Below are positions 1-22,991 of a stretch of 38,133 nucleotides of DNA, piece by piece. The position numbers and the translations under genes were made by a program. This stretch comes from a virus. The notes beneath the pieces are model-generated. The model worked only from the letters and a program-made list of their open reading frames with translations, was not told where the DNA came from and searched no databases. The stretch lies in IMG/VR virus record IMGVR_UViG_3300028653_000593, positions 1 through 38,133 of that record. One strand, given 5' to 3'. Within the stretch, counting starts at the first letter, position 1. Every line of letters begins with the position of its first letter.

Positions 1-35
1 GTCATAGTACTCTTACGGATGTTCCATCGGCCCTT
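1..35 (+). repeat. DGR variable repeat VR1 (partial)
   Basis: This matches the template repeat at 744-804 from its middle to its end. Codons CAT AGT ACT CTT ACG GAT stand where the template has AAT AAT ACT AAT ACG AAT, so all changes are at template adenines. The 3' end carries the TCGGCCCTT block shared by all three variable repeats but not by the template. Confidence 0.85.
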
Positions 36-110
36 TATTTAAAATCTGAAAAATTGGCTGTATTCTGTGGCAAAAAATTTATTCATTTATATAAAGATTA
101 TTATCAATAA
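1..110 (+). CDS. DGR target protein, 3' end only (5' cut by window edge)
   Basis: Open frame from the left edge (frame of position 3) to TAA at 108-110. The visible 35 residues begin inside a variable repeat (HSTLTDVPSAL) and continue as a conserved tail ending in LYKDYYQ. The tail is of the same kind as those of the two complete paralogues at 165-719 and 1926-2366: it follows the variable repeat by about 25 residues and ends in an aromatic-rich helix. It is therefore a third target of the retroelement encoded at 904-1872. Its N-terminal part and start lie outside the window. The target function is not known; a role in binding a variable ligand such as a host surface molecule is inference from other DGR systems. 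Confidence 0.8.
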   Translation, partial: HSTLTDVPSALYLKSEKLAVFCGKKFIHLYKDYYQ

Positions 111-112
111 AA

Positions 113-144
113 TTTGGTAGATTGAAATTTTTTATGTACCTTTG
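113..144 (+). promoter_or_regulatory. Bacteroidota-type promoter
   Basis: TTTG at 113-116, a 20-base spacer, and TACCTTTG at 137-144 match the -33/-7 consensus of Bacteroidota primary sigma. The element lies 20 bases before the ATG at 165 and probably drives the target gene and, by read-through, the template RNA and reverse transcriptase. Confidence 0.8.
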
Positions 145-164
145 TAATCATCTAAAAGAAAAAT

Positions 165-719
165 ATGAAAAATCAAACAATTAGTAGAGACAACCTTAAA
201 GAAATTTATAACATTGCTTGTTCTGGTTGGAAAACCAAGATTGAAGATTATGCTAAAAGAAATCCATTTGAAAATGAAATTTCTTTTACACAATCTGAAG
301 TTGATGAGATGTTTAAAGCATCTGATGAGAAGCAAACTAATGTTTTGAAGAAATTTTTCTCAATACCAAAAAATATTAGAGATCGAGTAAAATCGTTTTT
401 GGATGCTTGCAAGGTTCTCGATCTCAACCCAAAAGAAGTTTATCATTCCAATGATACACCTGATGAAGTTGCATTTAAGAAGCTTAAGGTAATTATCAAA
501 GCCCTAAATGAAGGTTGGTATCCAAACTGGAAAGACGAAAATGAAGCGAAATGGTATAATTACTTTAGAATGAAGGGCGGTTTTTCGTTTTATGATGCTT
601 CTTATCATTTTACTAGTACTTATACGGCTGTTCCATCGGCCCTTTGTCTTAGAAGCCAAGAACTTGCAAAATATGTCATTGAAATTGCGTTAGAAGAATA
701 TAAAGAATACTACTCATAA
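165..719 (+). CDS. DGR target protein (184 aa) with internal variable region
   Basis: A soluble 184-residue protein with no signal peptide or membrane segment. The N-terminal half is charged and helical. Residues 105-135 (AFKKLKVIIKALNEGWYPNW, then an aromatic stretch) are shared with the 1926-2366 paralogue. Residues 139-160 are encoded by a variable repeat, and the C-terminal tail (RSQELAKYVIEIALEEYKEYY) is again conserved in pattern. Relative to the template, the variable residues are F142, A145, S146, H148, F149, S151, Y153 and A155. The variable region is not at the very C-terminus, unlike many C-type-lectin DGR targets, so I do not assign that fold. The start at 165 follows a strong promoter by 20 bases. 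The gene lies directly upstream of the template repeat and reverse transcriptase. Confidence 0.85.
   Translation: MKNQTISRDNLKEIYNIACSGWKTKIEDYAKRNPFENEISFTQSEVDEMFKASDEKQTNVLKKFFSIPKNIRDRVKSFLDACKVLDLNPKEVYHSNDTPDEVAFKKLKVIIKALNEGWYPNWKDENEAKWYNYFRMKGGFSFYDASYHFTSTYTAVPSALCLRSQELAKYVIEIALEEYKEYYS
579..645 (+). repeat. DGR variable repeat VR2 (67 bp)
   Basis: Aligned with the template at 744-804, it starts with the shared GGTTTTTCGT and ends in TCGGCCCTT. Eleven or so substitutions fall on template adenines (for example ACT to GCT, AAT to TCT, AAT to TTT, AAT to GCT). Non-adenine positions in the core are unchanged. It is 6 bases longer than the template and the other repeats, with one extra ACT-nnT unit. 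Confidence 0.9.
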
Positions 720-903
720 AAGGGTTGTGTGCCAAACGGATGCGGTTTTTCGTATTATGATACTAATTATAATAATACTAATACGAATGTTCCATCAGCA
801 ACTTGCTTAAACATAACGGCACAGACCTTACCAACATGGTAAAAAATTACATAATTTAGTTAGGTGTTAGTATCTGCGGAAAACGCTCCTATTAAAGCAA
901 AGG
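720..903 (+). ncRNA. Putative DGR template RNA region between target gene and RT
   Basis: This 184-base stretch has no supported CDS and contains the template repeat. Known DGRs transcribe the template with flanking sequence that folds and binds the RT complex. The segment downstream of TR (805-903) includes short complementary runs around GTATCTGCGGAAAACGC, but I cannot fold it here. No TAnnTTTG promoter is visible inside, so it is probably transcribed from 137-144. Confidence 0.5.
744..804 (+). repeat. DGR template repeat (TR)
   Basis: This 61-bp sequence lies about 100 bases upstream of the reverse transcriptase. It is similar to the three variable repeats but has five AAT codons in register where the targets have CAT, TTT, AGT, GAT, TAT, CTT or GCT. 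AAY codons at the diversified positions are a known TR hallmark, because adenine mutagenesis there reaches many amino acids without stops. The 3' end (TCAGCAACTT) differs from TCGGCCCTT in all three variable repeats, as expected for an IMH*/IMH pair. It is not within a credible gene: the frame is open locally but has no start. Confidence 0.9.
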
Positions 904-1872
904 ATGAAGAGAGTAGGAAATCTTTACAATGACATTTGTGATATTGAAAACTTGGAACTGGCTGATTTAAAAGCTAGGAAGAGTAAACGTAATAGATATG
1001 ATGTTGTTTTACATGACAAAGAAAAAGATTTAAATATTTTAAAATTAAATGAAGCACTATTAAATAAAACTTTTAGAACTTCAACATATAAAACGTTTAA
1101 AATCTTCGAAGGTAAGGAACGAATAATTTCCAGCTTACCTTATTATCCAGATAGGATTGTTCATCATGCAATAATGAACAAATTAGAACCTATCTTCACA
1201 TCTTTGTTTACTTCCAATACTTATAGCTGTATTAAAGGAAGAGGCATTCATGGGGCAGCTAATGCCCTTAAAAAAGCACTCAAGGATGTTCCTAATACAA
1301 CTTATTGTCTGAAGATTGATATCAAACAATTCTATCCAAGTATTGATCATGAGATATTAAAACAAATCATTAGACGAAAAATCAAGGATAAAGATTTGTT
1401 ATGGTTGTTAGATGAGATTATTGATAGTGCTGATGGTATTCCAATTGGTAATTATTTAAGTCAATACTTTGCTAATTTATATCTAACTTATTTTGATCAT
1501 TGGTTGAAAGAGGTTAAAGGTGTAAAATATTGTTTTAGATATGCTGATGATATTGTCATATTATCTGGTAGTAAAGCCTATTTGCATGCTTTGTTAGCTG
1601 AAATGAGAGAGTATCTTGGAAGCAAATTAAAATTGACTATAAAAGACAACTATCAAGTCTTTATGGTTGAAATCAGAGGAATAGATTTTGTTGGTTATGT
1701 ATTCTTTCATACTCATGTATTGCTTAGAAAATCAATCAAAAAGAGCTTTGCTAGAATGATGTATAAACGAAGAAAGATAAGATCATTTTCAGCATATAGT
1801 GGTTGGTCAATGCATTGTAATGCAAGACATTTAATGAAGAAACTATTAAGTAATAAAACAATGTTGAATTAA
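904..1872 (+). CDS. DGR reverse transcriptase (322 aa)
   Basis: This RNA-dependent DNA polymerase copies the template RNA with adenine errors so that the cDNA can replace variable repeats in target genes. Visible RT motifs are a fingers segment around residues 75-115 (RIISSLPYYPDRIVHHAI, then the KGRGIHGAANAL region), motif A CLKIDIKQFYPSI near 135-147, the DGR-type motif GIPIGNYLSQ at 178-187 (group II and retron RTs have QGxxxSP there) and the catalytic YADD at 213-216. A basic thumb-like tail follows. The length is in the usual DGR RT range. There is no maturase or endonuclease domain. No Avd-like accessory protein is recognisable in the window; it could lie to the left. The start at 904 (ATG) follows the template RNA directly. 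Confidence 0.95.
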   Translation: MKRVGNLYNDICDIENLELADLKARKSKRNRYDVVLHDKEKDLNILKLNEALLNKTFRTSTYKTFKIFEGKERIISSLPYYPDRIVHHAIMNKLEPIFTSLFTSNTYSCIKGRGIHGAANALKKALKDVPNTTYCLKIDIKQFYPSIDHEILKQIIRRKIKDKDLLWLLDEIIDSADGIPIGNYLSQYFANLYLTYFDHWLKEVKGVKYCFRYADDIVILSGSKAYLHALLAEMREYLGSKLKLTIKDNYQVFMVEIRGIDFVGYVFFHTHVLLRKSIKKSFARMMYKRRKIRSFSAYSGWSMHCNARHLMKKLLSNKTMLN

Positions 1873-1873
1873 A

Positions 1874-1905
1874 TTTGGTTGTTTCAATTTTTTTTCATAC
1901 CTTTG
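1874..1905 (+). promoter_or_regulatory. Bacteroidota-type promoter
   Basis: TTTG 1874-1877, 20-base spacer, TACCTTTG 1898-1905. It sits immediately after the RT stop and 20 bases before the ATG at 1926, so the second complete target gene has its own promoter. Confidence 0.8.
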
Positions 1906-1925
1906 TGTCCTAAACAAAACTCAAC

Positions 1926-2366
1926 ATGAAAATAGATATCAATGGTGTTTCAATCACCTTAACTGATGAACAATTAGCTGAAATAGCTAGACAGACTAGT
2001 AAAATTAAATCTTACAAGGATATTACATCCTTTGATAAGGCTTGCGAACAACAAAACATCAATGTAAGCCAATTCAACTCTAAACTTGATGGTTTAGATA
2101 AGAATGAGATTGCACTTAGAAAACTTAAAATAATTGTTAAGGCAATCCGATCATTTACTAATTGGAAACCAGTTTGGTCTAACACCAATCAACGTAAATA
2201 TAGAGTTTGGTTTGATTTGGAGCAAGGTTTTTCGTCTTATGATACTTATTATAATAATACTGATACGGATGTTCCATCGGCCCTTTATGTAGAAAGTGAA
2301 GATCAAGCTAAGTTTTTAGGAATTACATTTTTGGACTTGTTTAAAGATTATATTCTTGAGGATTAG
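1926..2366 (+). CDS. DGR target protein (146 aa), downstream paralogue
   Basis: A shorter paralogue of the 165-719 product. The N-terminal 65 residues (KIDINGVSITLTDEQLAEIA) differ completely. From about residue 66 the proteins align: EIALRKLKIIVKAI, aromatic KYRVWFDL, the variable stretch at residues 101-120, then a conserved tail (SEDQAKFLGITFLDLFKDYI). Relative to the template, the variable residues are S104, Y108, D113 and D115. The different N-termini joined to one diversified module suggest that the module is reused on different anchors. The gene has its own promoter and is followed by a strong terminator, so it is a single-gene unit. Function is unknown beyond being the diversified product. 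Confidence 0.85.
   Translation: MKIDINGVSITLTDEQLAEIARQTSKIKSYKDITSFDKACEQQNINVSQFNSKLDGLDKNEIALRKLKIIVKAIRSFTNWKPVWSNTNQRKYRVWFDLEQGFSSYDTYYNNTDTDVPSALYVESEDQAKFLGITFLDLFKDYILED
2226..2286 (+). repeat. DGR variable repeat VR3 (61 bp)
   Basis: Same length as the template. Core differences from TR are only A to C, A to T, A to G and A to G, all at template adenines. The 3' block TCGGCCCTT is identical to VR1 and VR2 and different from TR. Confidence 0.9.
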
Positions 2367-3719: not shown

Positions 3720-4277
3720 ATGGATATTAGAAAACGACTTAGAATGGCTTTATTAAATGAAGGTGCTCACAAAAATGAATATGGTTGTGTAATGGTGTTT
3801 TTAGATGCAGATCAAAAACGCTGGAATGAAATGCAAGATATGATCGATGAAGATGATTTATATGATCCCAAGGATGATACTGGATTTGGTAGAGAAACTG
3901 AACCACATGTAACAATCTTATTTGGACTTCACAATAATATTTTAGATAAAGATATTGAAGAAGAAATTGATAGTCTTAAGACACCTAAAATGGCATTTAA
4001 AGGAATTTCTTCTTTTGCAAATCCAAAATTTGATGTATTGAAATTTGATGTTGAAAGTGAAGATTTACATAAAGCAAACAAAAAATTTACAGATAATTTT
4101 CCATATACGAATGATCATCCAAAATATCATCCTCACTGTACAATAGCGTATCTTAAACCTAAGATGGCAGATAAGTACATCAAAAAATTAAAAGAGATGG
4201 TTGACATTGAAATTAAACCAAGTAAATTTGTTTACTCAAAGGCAGATGGAACAAAAAAGAATTACAAATTAAAATAA
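3720..4277 (+). CDS. 2H phosphoesterase (LigT/2'-5' RNA ligase-like)
   Basis: The two signature HxT motifs are present: PHVTILFG (H63, T65) and HCTIAYLK (H139, T141), about 75 residues apart as in the 2H superfamily. Members hydrolyse or transfer 2',3'-cyclic phosphates or 2'-5' linkages. Phage examples include the anti-CBASS enzyme Acb1, which cleaves cyclic nucleotide signals. The protein is 185 aa with no signal peptide. The opening MDIRKRLRMALLNEG resembles short basic leaders seen on various phage proteins. I cannot tell whether the substrate is RNA ends or a cyclic-nucleotide alarm; the location next to mnmA would fit tRNA repair. No clear promoter precedes it. Confidence 0.85.
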   Translation: MDIRKRLRMALLNEGAHKNEYGCVMVFLDADQKRWNEMQDMIDEDDLYDPKDDTGFGRETEPHVTILFGLHNNILDKDIEEEIDSLKTPKMAFKGISSFANPKFDVLKFDVESEDLHKANKKFTDNFPYTNDHPKYHPHCTIAYLKPKMADKYIKKLKEMVDIEIKPSKFVYSKADGTKKNYKLK

Positions 4278-13959: not shown

Positions 13960-15621
13960 ATGAACGAAGTCTCAACAACAGAACAAGTTAAAACGGTTGT
14001 ATTGCCAAAACGTAAAGTTTATAAAACACCACGTCTATTGCTTGGTGATGCTTATACCATTGGTTCTAATAAATTCGAAAGCCCAGAGGCTAAAGAAAAA
14101 TCGGTTTATTATGTAACATTCAGAAAAAATCTCAATACGATTAATCCTCATATTTACAGTAAAGCTGACAATCGTATCATCTTTATTGGTCTCCAACGTA
14201 TTCTTGAAAAATTATTCTACGAACCAATCACACACGCTGAGATCGATGAAACAATCCGTTTCCTAGCTCATGCTAAGGTTACAATGGAAGGATTCAAAGA
14301 ATATGAATTCCCAGAAGAAATCTGGCGCAGAGTTGTTGATGAATTCGGTGGCCGTCCCCCAATTAAAATTCGTGCTGTGCGTGAAGGAAGCGTCATTTAT
14401 CCAAATGAACCAGCTATTGAAATCATCTCTGATGTTGATGGACTTGGTGTGTTGGGTGCTTGGTTTGAATCTAAAATTCTCCAAACTTGGAGTACTACTG
14501 AACGTGTTACACAAGATGAACACTTCTTATTGCGTATCAAAGAACGCATTCTTAAAGTTGATCCAGATATGTCAGAAGAAATGCTTAATTTCTGGGCCAG
14601 CATTACGATTACTGACTTTGGTGACAGAGCTGGTATGACACTTGAAGAATCAGAAGAACTTGGAATGGTTCACTTATACACCTTTGGTGGTACAGATACG
14701 TTTTCTGGTGCTTACCAAGCATGGAAAAATTCTGGTGAAGCAATTGGCATCTTCTCAAGTGTAAATGCTCTTGCTCACAGAAACGTACAATCATATACAA
14801 AAGAAAATGATTGTTACGAAGCGATCTATAACTCATGTAAGAACCATGAAATTGTATCAATGGTTGATGATTGTTATGATGCTAAAAACTCCGTAAAAAA
14901 TATGTTATTGCCACTAGCTTTGAGAAGTCTCAAAGAAGGTAATGGTAAAGTAGTTGTTGCTCGTCCTGATTCTTCAAAAGAAGGATATACAACACTTGAT
15001 CAAATCATTGAAATTTGCGATCTTTCAGTTGCAAATGGTCTGTTCACAGAAATGACAACCAAGACTGGTTCTTGGAAATGTGGTACATTATTTCACTTCT
15101 TGGACGGTGATGGAAAATCTTGCGAAGATATTCTTGAAGAAATCGATGCACTCATTGCAAAAGGATATGCATTCTACACTTGGGGATTATTCGGACAAGG
15201 TGGTGGGTTGCGTAATAATTTGAAACGTGATAACTTATCAGCAAAATATGCTTTATCATCTGTTGGTTCTGAAGATCGTCCAGTTGTGAAATTCAGCGAA
15301 ACAATTGGTAAAGGAACATTACCAGGTCCTTTCAAATTGCTCAGAAGTAAAGAAGCATTGGGAGCTAAGAAAACCATTTGTTTTGAACATGAATCAGGTG
15401 AAGATGCAATGGTTACTTATTTCGATGGTACCAACATTTATAAACCATTTGGTGAAGGACAAGATGATGACTTCTTGATTATCAAAGCAAATATTAAATC
15501 TCAAATGGCAAGTATGCCTTTGAGTCTTGGAACAACAGAAAATCACAATTATCCAGCAAGTGCTGAAATCATGTCAACTAAACAAGCATTGTTGATTGAG
15601 TATGCACCAGCAAAACAATAA
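13960..15621 (+). CDS. nadV: Nicotinamide phosphoribosyltransferase (Nampt/NadV)
   Basis: Joins nicotinamide to PRPP to make NMN. At 553 aa it is somewhat longer than human NAMPT (about 490). Conserved landmarks are GGTDTFSG (D246, position of the substrate-selecting Asp219 of human NAMPT), LAHRNV (H273, position of the catalytic His247), VARPDSS (R335 and D337, phosphate and ribose binding) and the glycine loop WGLFGQGGGL from 408. The sequence between landmarks is quite divergent from animal and proteobacterial enzymes. In the NARP1 route of phages a related enzyme (Namat) uses ADPR-pyrophosphate instead of PRPP and is annotated the same way. The presence of a NadM enzyme here favours the NMN route. 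A 5-base gap separates it from the next gene. Confidence 0.9.
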   Translation: MNEVSTTEQVKTVVLPKRKVYKTPRLLLGDAYTIGSNKFESPEAKEKSVYYVTFRKNLNTINPHIYSKADNRIIFIGLQRILEKLFYEPITHAEIDETIRFLAHAKVTMEGFKEYEFPEEIWRRVVDEFGGRPPIKIRAVREGSVIYPNEPAIEIISDVDGLGVLGAWFESKILQTWSTTERVTQDEHFLLRIKERILKVDPDMSEEMLNFWASITITDFGDRAGMTLEESEELGMVHLYTFGGTDTFSGAYQAWKNSGEAIGIFSSVNALAHRNVQSYTKENDCYEAIYNSCKNHEIVSMVDDCYDAKNSVKNMLLPLALRSLKEGNGKVVVARPDSSKEGYTTLDQIIEICDLSVANGLFTEMTTKTGSWKCGTLFHFLDGDGKSCEDILEEIDALIAKGYAFYTWGLFGQGGGLRNNLKRDNLSAKYALSSVGSEDRPVVKFSETIGKGTLPGPFKLLRSKEALGAKKTICFEHESGEDAMVTYFDGTNIYKPFGEGQDDDFLIIKANIKSQMASMPLSLGTTENHNYPASAEIMSTKQALLIEYAPAKQ

Positions 15622-21938: not shown

Positions 21939-22991
21939 ATGGACTCTTTATTGTTTTCATTAGACGGTAGAATTGATTTGGCAAATGAAATTGTCAATAA
22001 TACTAATCAATTTTGTCAACCAGAATCTCCTACTAAAGAAGGACGAGTAGAACTTGGTATTTTGAATTCACAAAAATTCTCTGATGGAGAGCTTTGTGTT
22101 GATTTCACTGATTCAGTTCGTGGTAAACGTGTTTACATTTTATCAAGTCCTAATACTTCTGATGAAATCATGAAGCTATTATTGGCTATTGATGCTGCTA
22201 AACGTGCAGCTGCAAAAGAAATCATTCCAATCCTTCCTTACTTTCCTTATGCACGTCAAGATAAGAAAGATCAATCACGTGGTCCTATTGGTGCTAAGGT
22301 GATGGCTGAAATGCTTGAACAACGTGGTGCAACTTCTGTGATTACGTATGATTTGCATGCTGATCAAATTCAAGGATTCTTCAATATTCCAGTAACACAT
22401 ATTGAAGGAAAAACTGTTTTTGATGACTATATTGAATCACTAGTTACTGGTGAAACCCATAACTTTGTTTTCTGTGGACCAGATGCTGGTTCTGGAAAAC
22501 GTGTTAAACGTATGAAAGATCAAATGATGAAATATCATAATCTTGCATTCAATTATGTCATGTTGGATAAGACAAGAAAAGCAGCAAATGTAATTGATGA
22601 GATGATCATCATTGGTGATGTAACTGGTAAAGATGTAATCATTCTTGATGATATGGTTGATACTGGAGGAACATTGTGTAAAGCAGCTGAAGTTCTTATG
22701 ACTGCTGGTGCAACAAGTGTAAGAGCAATTATCAGTCATGGTGTGTTATCTGGTCATGCTTTTGAAAATATTGGTGAGTCAGTATTAACTGAATTAATAA
22801 TCAGTGATTCATTGATTAAGCCAAATTATCTTCAATTATGTGGACGTAATTATAATGAATCAGCTTGTATAAGTATTAAAAAAGGCTGTGATAAGATTAG
22901 AGTGATAAGTGTTGCTAAACAAATTGGATTTGCAATGGCAGCATTAAATAACAATTTAAGTTACGAGGCATTAAGGTCTCACAACAAATAA
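21939..22991 (+). CDS. prs: Ribose-phosphate pyrophosphokinase (PRPP synthetase)
   Basis: Makes PRPP from ribose-5-phosphate and ATP. Full-length, 350 aa. FSDGEL near residue 47, ILPYFPYARQDKK, then GPIGAKVMAEMLEQRGATSV, TYDLHADQIQGFF, the FCGPDAGSGKR loop and the PRPP-binding VIILDDMVDTGGT. PRPP is a substrate of the nadV enzyme at 13960, and phages with nadV often carry prs. A relative (Adps) in the NARP1 route acts on ADP-ribose, and active-site comparison would be needed to exclude that; the canonical motifs favour PRPP synthesis. Confidence 0.92.
   Translation: MDSLLFSLDGRIDLANEIVNNTNQFCQPESPTKEGRVELGILNSQKFSDGELCVDFTDSVRGKRVYILSSPNTSDEIMKLLLAIDAAKRAAAKEIIPILPYFPYARQDKKDQSRGPIGAKVMAEMLEQRGATSVITYDLHADQIQGFFNIPVTHIEGKTVFDDYIESLVTGETHNFVFCGPDAGSGKRVKRMKDQMMKYHNLAFNYVMLDKTRKAANVIDEMIIIGDVTGKDVIILDDMVDTGGTLCKAAEVLMTAGATSVRAIISHGVLSGHAFENIGESVLTELIISDSLIKPNYLQLCGRNYNESACISIKKGCDKIRVISVAKQIGFAMAALNNNLSYEALRSHNK

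Follow-up and report, generated by a model that had tools for sequence, protein, structure and literature searches.

Diversity-generating retroelements (DGRs) are well known, as are multiple targets, remote targets and one non-structural target in a phage. In the DGR of Bordetella phage BPP-1 (mtd, avd, TR, brt), whose target is a tail fibre, a template repeat (TR) is located just 5' of a reverse transcriptase (RT) with the motif IGxxxSQ, and the variable repeat (VR) of the target differs from the template at adenines only. The spacer between TR and RT is structured; RT-Avd is recruited by this folded RNA, which also primes cDNA synthesis (PMC12875486). Here, a DGR in the first 2.4 kb of the IMG/VR virus record IMGVR_UViG_3300028653_000593 is described. 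The whole record of 38,133 bases is referred to as the window, and all DGR parts within it are on the + strand. The locus is like BPP-1 in the RT motif, the position of the TR, the adenine-only differences and the structured spacer, but no Avd was found, several small targets are present, residues follow the VR, and one target is remote. It is very probably best explained as a functional phage DGR rewriting the target gene T0 and the remote target gene T3; that the targets are intracellular proteins outside the virion is less certain.

A survey of 948 DGRs listed 271 with multiple VRs, 235 of these with multiple target genes (PMC6642488), and remote targets have already been mentioned (PMC8144416). 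The tentaclin DGRs nd4 and nd12 also combine one TR with more than one target, but C-lectin targets are used there and the nd12 RT is 33% identical (PMC10743442). The nearest named RTs, with identities of up to 58%, belong to crAss-like phages (cr53_1, cr115_1, LMMB), but in cr53_1 and LMMB the gene preceding the RT is annotated as specifying a tail protein. For Quimbyvirus, a second DGR target was reported that is non-structural, remote, on the opposite strand and near methyltransferases and a tRNA ligase, and a C-type lectin domain was assigned to it by Benler 2021; phage targets known before were structural (PMC8008677). The DGR of Quimbyvirus and LoVEphage serves a tail protein with the small gene coming second, whereas only small targets were found here. 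According to Roux 2021, annotated VR regions are systematically lectin-like and DGRs are mainly tied to virus-cell and cell-particle contact (PMC8144416). The points cited here and below are taken from parts of the respective papers. In a literature search that did not reach most subscription papers, the small-target family was not found described as a class, and many viral targets are listed as unknown by Roux 2021.

Template, repeats and reverse transcriptase

Positions 1-2366 of the window constitute a DGR in which a single template serves several targets (Table 1). The first-pass annotation, made from the letters alone, had named three targets, which were confirmed; a fourth, T3, lies beyond the window. 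The locus combines a template near the RT, four VRs, differences confined to adenines and, as a sequence pattern, a 3' difference of the type known as initiation of mutagenic homing, IMH/IMH*. T0 corresponds to an open reading frame (ORF) of 185 amino acids (aa) in L005, another locus of this phage, or of 171 aa if counted from a later ATG. The ORF of T3 is intact in the contig G002 described below; a TGA in T3 was only apparent, arising from reading upstream of the start.

Comparisons of the repeats revealed a strict pattern within the core. The TR core contains 18 adenines among 53 nt, and each of the four differences in VR2, as well as each of the four in the VR of T3, is on a template adenine. 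The same applies to VR0, where 8/8 differences in L004, also from this phage, 9/9 in L005 and 6/6 in the window (bases 1-28) are on adenines. VR1 shows 9-10 differences, all on adenines once an in-frame insertion of 6 nt is allowed. The proposed restriction of core differences to adenines is therefore valid for 744-796, with an insertion in VR1 that had been left unmentioned, and five AAT codons were indeed found in register in the alignment. It does not extend over the whole repeat as originally delimited, 744-804, since these ends take in a 3' part in which the VRs match each other but depart from the template, with one shared non-adenine difference at C802 of the template, which is T in the VRs. 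In this part, all four VRs carry TCGGCCCTT where the TR carries TCAGCAACTT, the C-to-T change included, an arrangement that looks like the IMH/IMH* pair of BPP-1. When VR 3' ends were compared in 12 loci, L008 resembled the window; the VRs of the remaining relatives mostly have a common end of the type GG-TC-CGCCTTTGC, which differs from the TR at fixed places.

The RT contains PIGNYLSQ and YADD, as predicted, and matches the reverse transcriptase family phrog_1423 with an E-value of 1e-118. In a phylogenetic tree, a branch with 100/100 support places 20 rows with DGR RTs apart from the four RTs of group II or similar type that were included, and the RT of the window is on the DGR side. So is RT_Cruim01, in which PIGNLSSQ is present. 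Long branches make finer placement in this tree unsure; the L006 row was cut at its stop and the cr53 row contained a stop. In the closest relative, L006/L096, the RT (L096:8029-9030) is 78% identical and broken by one in-frame stop; despite this stop, the TR and leader region of this relative still has 86% identity with that of the window.

Between TR and RT, an alignment of 38 sequences, the window and 37 loci, revealed a conserved leader RNA. Two stem-loops with ten pairs are predicted; all ten show compensatory changes, and 94.5% of the cells are paired. Stem-loop 1 accounts for four pairs (4/4 with compensatory changes, 98.0% of cells paired) and stem-loop 2 for six (6/6). The covariation score was 0.640, compared to 0.224 for shuffled alignments (0/500) and at most 0.103 for slid versions. 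By analogy to BPP-1, this RNA may prime cDNA synthesis. The Rfam scan of the window produced no match at gathering scores.

The sequence TTTG-N20-TACCTTTG, which we take to be the Bacteroidota-type promoter consensus, occurs 13 times in the window, while 2.9 sites are expected and none of 100 shuffles reached 13. Such promoter-like sites precede T1 and T2, but none is located before the RT.

Table 1. Features of the DGR. Positions refer to the window unless another contig or locus is given.
Feature	Position	Strand	Basis or remark
T0, C-terminal part of target gene 0, truncated by contig start	1..110	+	ORF continues in L005
VR0 core, variable repeat of T0, cut by contig start	1-28	+	repeat comparison
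Promoter-like site TTTG-N20-TACCTTTG preceding T1	113..144	+	consensus match
T1, target gene 1, 184 aa, phrog_11581	165..719	+	profile match
VR1 core, 6-nt in-frame insertion relative to template	579..637	+	repeat alignment
TR core, 53 nt, outside every target gene	744..796	+	repeat alignment
TR 3' continuation, IMH*-like, fixed-position differences from all VRs	ends ~804	+	alignment
Leader RNA stem-loop 1, between TR and RT; 829-832 pairs with 838-841	829..841	+	38-sequence alignment; positions hand-counted
Leader RNA stem-loop 2; 862-863/889-890, 866-867/885-886, 873-874/879-880	862..890	+	alignment; positions hand-counted
DGR RT, 322 aa, IGNYLSQ and YADD	904..1872	+	motifs, profile match
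Bacteroidota-type promoter-like site preceding T2	1874..1905	+	consensus match
T2, target gene 2, 146 aa, phrog_11581, 3' of RT	1926..2366	+	profile match
VR2 core	2226..2278	+	4/4 differences on template adenines
T3, fourth target, outside the window, ~47 kb from RT	G002:C1:122390-122827 (VR 122478-122536)	-	
ORF of ~100 aa in relatives, candidate accessory factor (examples)	L007:6947-7243, L137:9846-10139		

Variation among contigs and in related loci

Two further IMG/VR contigs, G001 (54,995 bases) and G002 (124,454 bases), carry the same phage, and adenine-specific polymorphism was searched among them. G001 and G002 differ by eight mismatches in 40,000 collinear bases, the window and G002 by six sites in 38,133 bases, and the window and G001 by three sites in 27,338 bases. 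All of these differences are in VR0 and all are on template adenines. Across the three contigs VR0 has ten variable sites, two of them contributed by the window; the probability of all ten falling on template adenines by chance is 2.2e-6. For T3, L158 (14,445 bases) was compared to G002, yielding 11 differences, of which two are in VR3, both on template adenines, and nine in a single tract of 158 bases. Another sequence, L101, is identical to G002 in the T3 region across 10,047 bases. Because the contig differences are found on template adenines of VR0 and VR3, it is concluded that T0 is being rewritten, and T3 probably as well.

Beyond the repeats, the tract in L158 (8266-8423), with its nine mostly synonymous differences, looks like a small recombination tract or ordinary strain variation rather than a DGR repeat. 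Past 40 kb, the identity between the end of G001 (L093) and G002 falls to 98% and then to 86-89%, which suggests, judged from the sequences, recombination between strains.

Differences between contigs could also be assembly noise at a collapsed repeat, with the VRs of different targets swapped. In both the window and L158, the sequence stops within a VR, where assemblers struggle; such ends would fit assembly breaks at hypervariable sites. The VR0 sequences of L004 and L005, however, are not copies of VR1, VR2, VR3 or the TR, and T0 sequence flanks VR0 on both sides, so that this explanation is very improbable. Still less credible, to the point of being negligible, is the proposal that the repeats reflect ordinary similarity of paralogues or gene conversion in the absence of any RT-driven process. 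T1, T2, and T3 are in fact paralogous to T0 (36-48% identity), but core differences only on template adenines, VR0 changes arising without any other change in 40 kb, and the bias to a single strand in relatives, 132 to 1, all argue against it.

This bias was determined in the best 80 of 257 RT loci in viral contigs, with RTs 58-100% identical; several of these loci are near copies, so that counts per locus are not independent. The repeat finder tolerated no more than one non-A mismatch in 50 nt and misses gapped pairs such as VR1, which makes these counts incomplete as well. Repeat pairs were obtained for 71 of the 80 loci and none for nine. In 132 adenine-type pairs, the template shares the strand of the RT, versus one pair in which it is on the opposite strand. 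Non-A mismatches in the pairs were rare (9/4,187), a low count that is partly built into the limit of the finder. When all four bases were tried on both strands in 40 loci from this set of 80, A and T each gave 62 pairs in 35 loci, whereas C and G each gave 10 pairs in eight loci. T mirrors A because the two bases are complementary; therefore, the strand count is the real control. In 112 of the 132 pairs, the matched TR window begins 140-180 bases upstream of the RT.

Three targets for one template had appeared unusual. In this RT clade, multiple VRs are the rule: of the 63 loci in which 1.5 kb or more precedes the RT, 45 contain at least two, and the usual layout is two or three tandem targets 5' of the RT. 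Targets flanking the RT on both sides are indeed rarer; among the 63 loci, a downstream repeat was detected in L004, L005 and L008 only. L037, which belongs to the 17 loci whose upstream flank is short, has a repeat downstream of the RT at +5,977. In L118 (4956-7633), target-like ORFs flank the RT on both sides. Two fused genes, L038:4918-5793 and L083:1573-2310, contain two target domains and two VRs each.

Of 78 loci in which the 3' sequence was long enough, 68 have an ORF of about 100 aa near the RT end; two members were scanned and matched phrog_19665. No such ORF was found at this place in the other ten, including L004, L005, L006, L008, and L032, and in this phage and L008 a target gene 3' of the RT takes its place. 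Searches of 50,697 phage records with the 99-aa ORF and with the target module of L007 gave no match at E 1e-5; in the same records, T1 gave two matches and a longer family member eight at E 0.01.

A second phage allowed similar comparisons. Between L016 and L017, all 13 mismatches in 5,995 positions are in one VR, each on a template adenine, and between L016 and L020, 12 of 13 in 6,861 positions are in another VR. A third target varies between L015 and L017, with nine adenine and two other differences in the VR and 13 outside. Compared to L013, L016, L017, and L020, L015 shows 13-14 differences outside VRs and two non-adenine differences inside. Five comparisons with L014, in which the VRs are not covered, yielded 7-19 differences, none of them in VRs. 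Bacterial genomes contributed 19 loci, mostly titled Bacteroidota; in 11 of them, e.g. Yeosuana marina and Muricauda, the RT is near targets.

The target family and its gene neighbourhood

What stands out at this locus is the target family: small proteins, mostly devoid of membrane-like segments, with predicted helices holding a variable loop or hairpin. T1, T0, and T2 match phrog_11581, a family of unknown function, with E-values of 1.1e-19, 1.5e-18 and 4.6e-12, respectively, as do 120 of 124 aligned target members, which vary in size from 119 to 185 aa. The hydropathy cut-off for membrane segments is exceeded by three of the 124 targets, and one has a hydrophobic N-terminus. Pfam searches with the 124 members returned five families, each with a single weak member match, and thus no domain was recognised confidently. 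A PDB sequence search with the targets gave nothing below E 0.2. AlphaFold2 models of T0 and of the L007 module (pLDDT 85.7 and 87.6, lower in the VR) predict helices with a VR loop in T0 and a VR hairpin in the module. Foldseek searches with the two models gave no convincing match (best E 3.9 and 3.0), and the best VIA-align Z scores were 4.9 (rmsd 4.9, 60 residues in the N-terminal part of T0) and 2.5 (rmsd 4.0, 69 residues). Their best matches in BFVD are uncharacterised phage proteins, and C-type lectins are missing from the PDB sequence and fold match lists.

An atypical end of the targets, with about 25 residues following the VR, had been noted. In 110 small-type targets, 22-37 residues (median 27) trail the matched VR window, which is thus not at the extreme C-terminus, and the predicted fold is helical. 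In a profile comparison to six tail-type targets of sister RTs only the VR segment aligned, over 27 columns with 41% identity and an hhalign probability of 86.8. From the alignment, it may be read as a VR hairpin common to two scaffolds; the small targets may alternatively have a derived or reduced lectin-like fold.

The genes adjoining small targets were analysed in 20 loci (150 proteins), considering the 25 commonest of 178 PHROG families, each of which matches only two or three proteins. Eight of these families are unnamed. Among the 17 named ones, 15 are nucleic-acid or nucleotide enzymes or concern transposition, replication or ATPases, and two are head or neck families. At the tail-target loci of sister RTs (six loci, 31 neighbours), tail protein is commonest (6/31), followed among the named families by endolysin and integrase. 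When ten long ORFs of G002 were scanned, none matched a structural family and four matched nothing.

Members of the target family are also encoded by the Bacteroides phages LoVEphage and Versailles, in which one template serves a tail-annotated gene and a remote small target. The tail-annotated genes differ from the template at nine (LoVEphage) and eight (Versailles) adenines and at no other position; over 45 nt, the small targets have seven and nine differences, respectively, again at adenines only. The LoVEphage gene (OY731444) matches the target family with 68.3 bits and is found on the opposite strand among methyltransferases and a tRNA ligase; judging from this gene content, it is probably the second-target ORF of Quimbyvirus. 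The Versailles member belongs to a recombination module and, on the linear record, is separated from the RT by 43 kb.

Elsewhere in the window, a 2H phosphoesterase (PF13563) is encoded near the DGR at 3720-4277, with a match to the anti-CBASS (cyclic oligonucleotide-based antiphage signalling system) protein Acb1 that is below the cut-off (25.4 of 27 bits). A nicotinamide phosphoribosyltransferase and a ribose-phosphate pyrophosphokinase are specified at 13960-15621 and 21939-22991. The latter two presumably recall phage pathways rebuilding NAD+ against NAD-depleting defence.

Possible roles of the targets

In a functional DGR of this kind, the RT would reverse-transcribe an RNA that spans the TR and the folded leader, making errors opposite the adenines of the template. 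Priming would occur within the leader and, by retrohoming as in BPP-1, the cDNA would replace the homologous VR of a target, either the neighbouring T0 or T3, ~47 kb away. With less certainty, the VR loops of the targets could bind variable molecules of the host or of rival phages, most plausibly in defence or counter-defence. Several observations weigh against this picture or parts of it. Of the two differences in VR3, one falls on the penultimate base of L158, where assembly errors are commoner, and T1 and T2 show no differences between the three contigs. Some small-target loci adjoin head or neck genes, each family is represented by few neighbours, and HHpred labels the Versailles member as 'tail protein' in its record. 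The ORF of about 100 aa was not found in the examined pieces of G001 and G002, and Avd-like PF05635 matches were obtained in neither of two incomplete records.

The invariance of VR1 and VR2, together with the 6-nt insertion in VR1, could indicate that only T0, and perhaps T3, is live, T1 and T2 being old targets which are no longer mutated. This may be so, but we rather doubt it: VR1 and VR2 differ from the TR core at adenines only and retain the 3' sequence shared by the VRs, all three targets vary in a relative, one of them with two non-adenine differences, and three contigs do not suffice to declare a target dead. It is also conceivable, albeit unlikely, that the targets are virion proteins as in BPP-1, minor tail or receptor-binding decorations encoded apart from the tail cluster. 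In several DGR clades, tail protein is the prevailing annotation among viral targets (PMC8144416), and the structural phage targets preceding Quimbyvirus (PMC8008677), the tail annotation of one family member and the similarity of the VR segment to tail-type targets point in the same direction. Against virion proteins stand the small size of the targets, which have no other confidently recognised domain, the prominence of DNA metabolism among their neighbours, and the situation in LoVEphage and Versailles, where the tail-annotated and the small target are separate genes under one template. Intracellular proteins with a role in conflict are therefore favoured, because of the DNA-metabolism neighbours, the few membrane-like targets and the remote second targets of these two phages.

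Intracellular targets could be representative of a wider class. With slightly less than even confidence, we consider such DGRs widespread in Bacteroidota phages, each diversifying two to four small, early-type helical binders directed against host defence or rival phages, with one member changing at any given time and the rest being retained. The contigs analysed here provide a clean natural case in which one target was caught being rewritten with nothing else changed in 40 kb. The named Bacteroides phages with family members, LoVEphage and Versailles, could make the intracellular reading testable. If it is true, targeted hypermutation would also serve the fight inside the cell, by means of small, apparently intracellular phage proteins.

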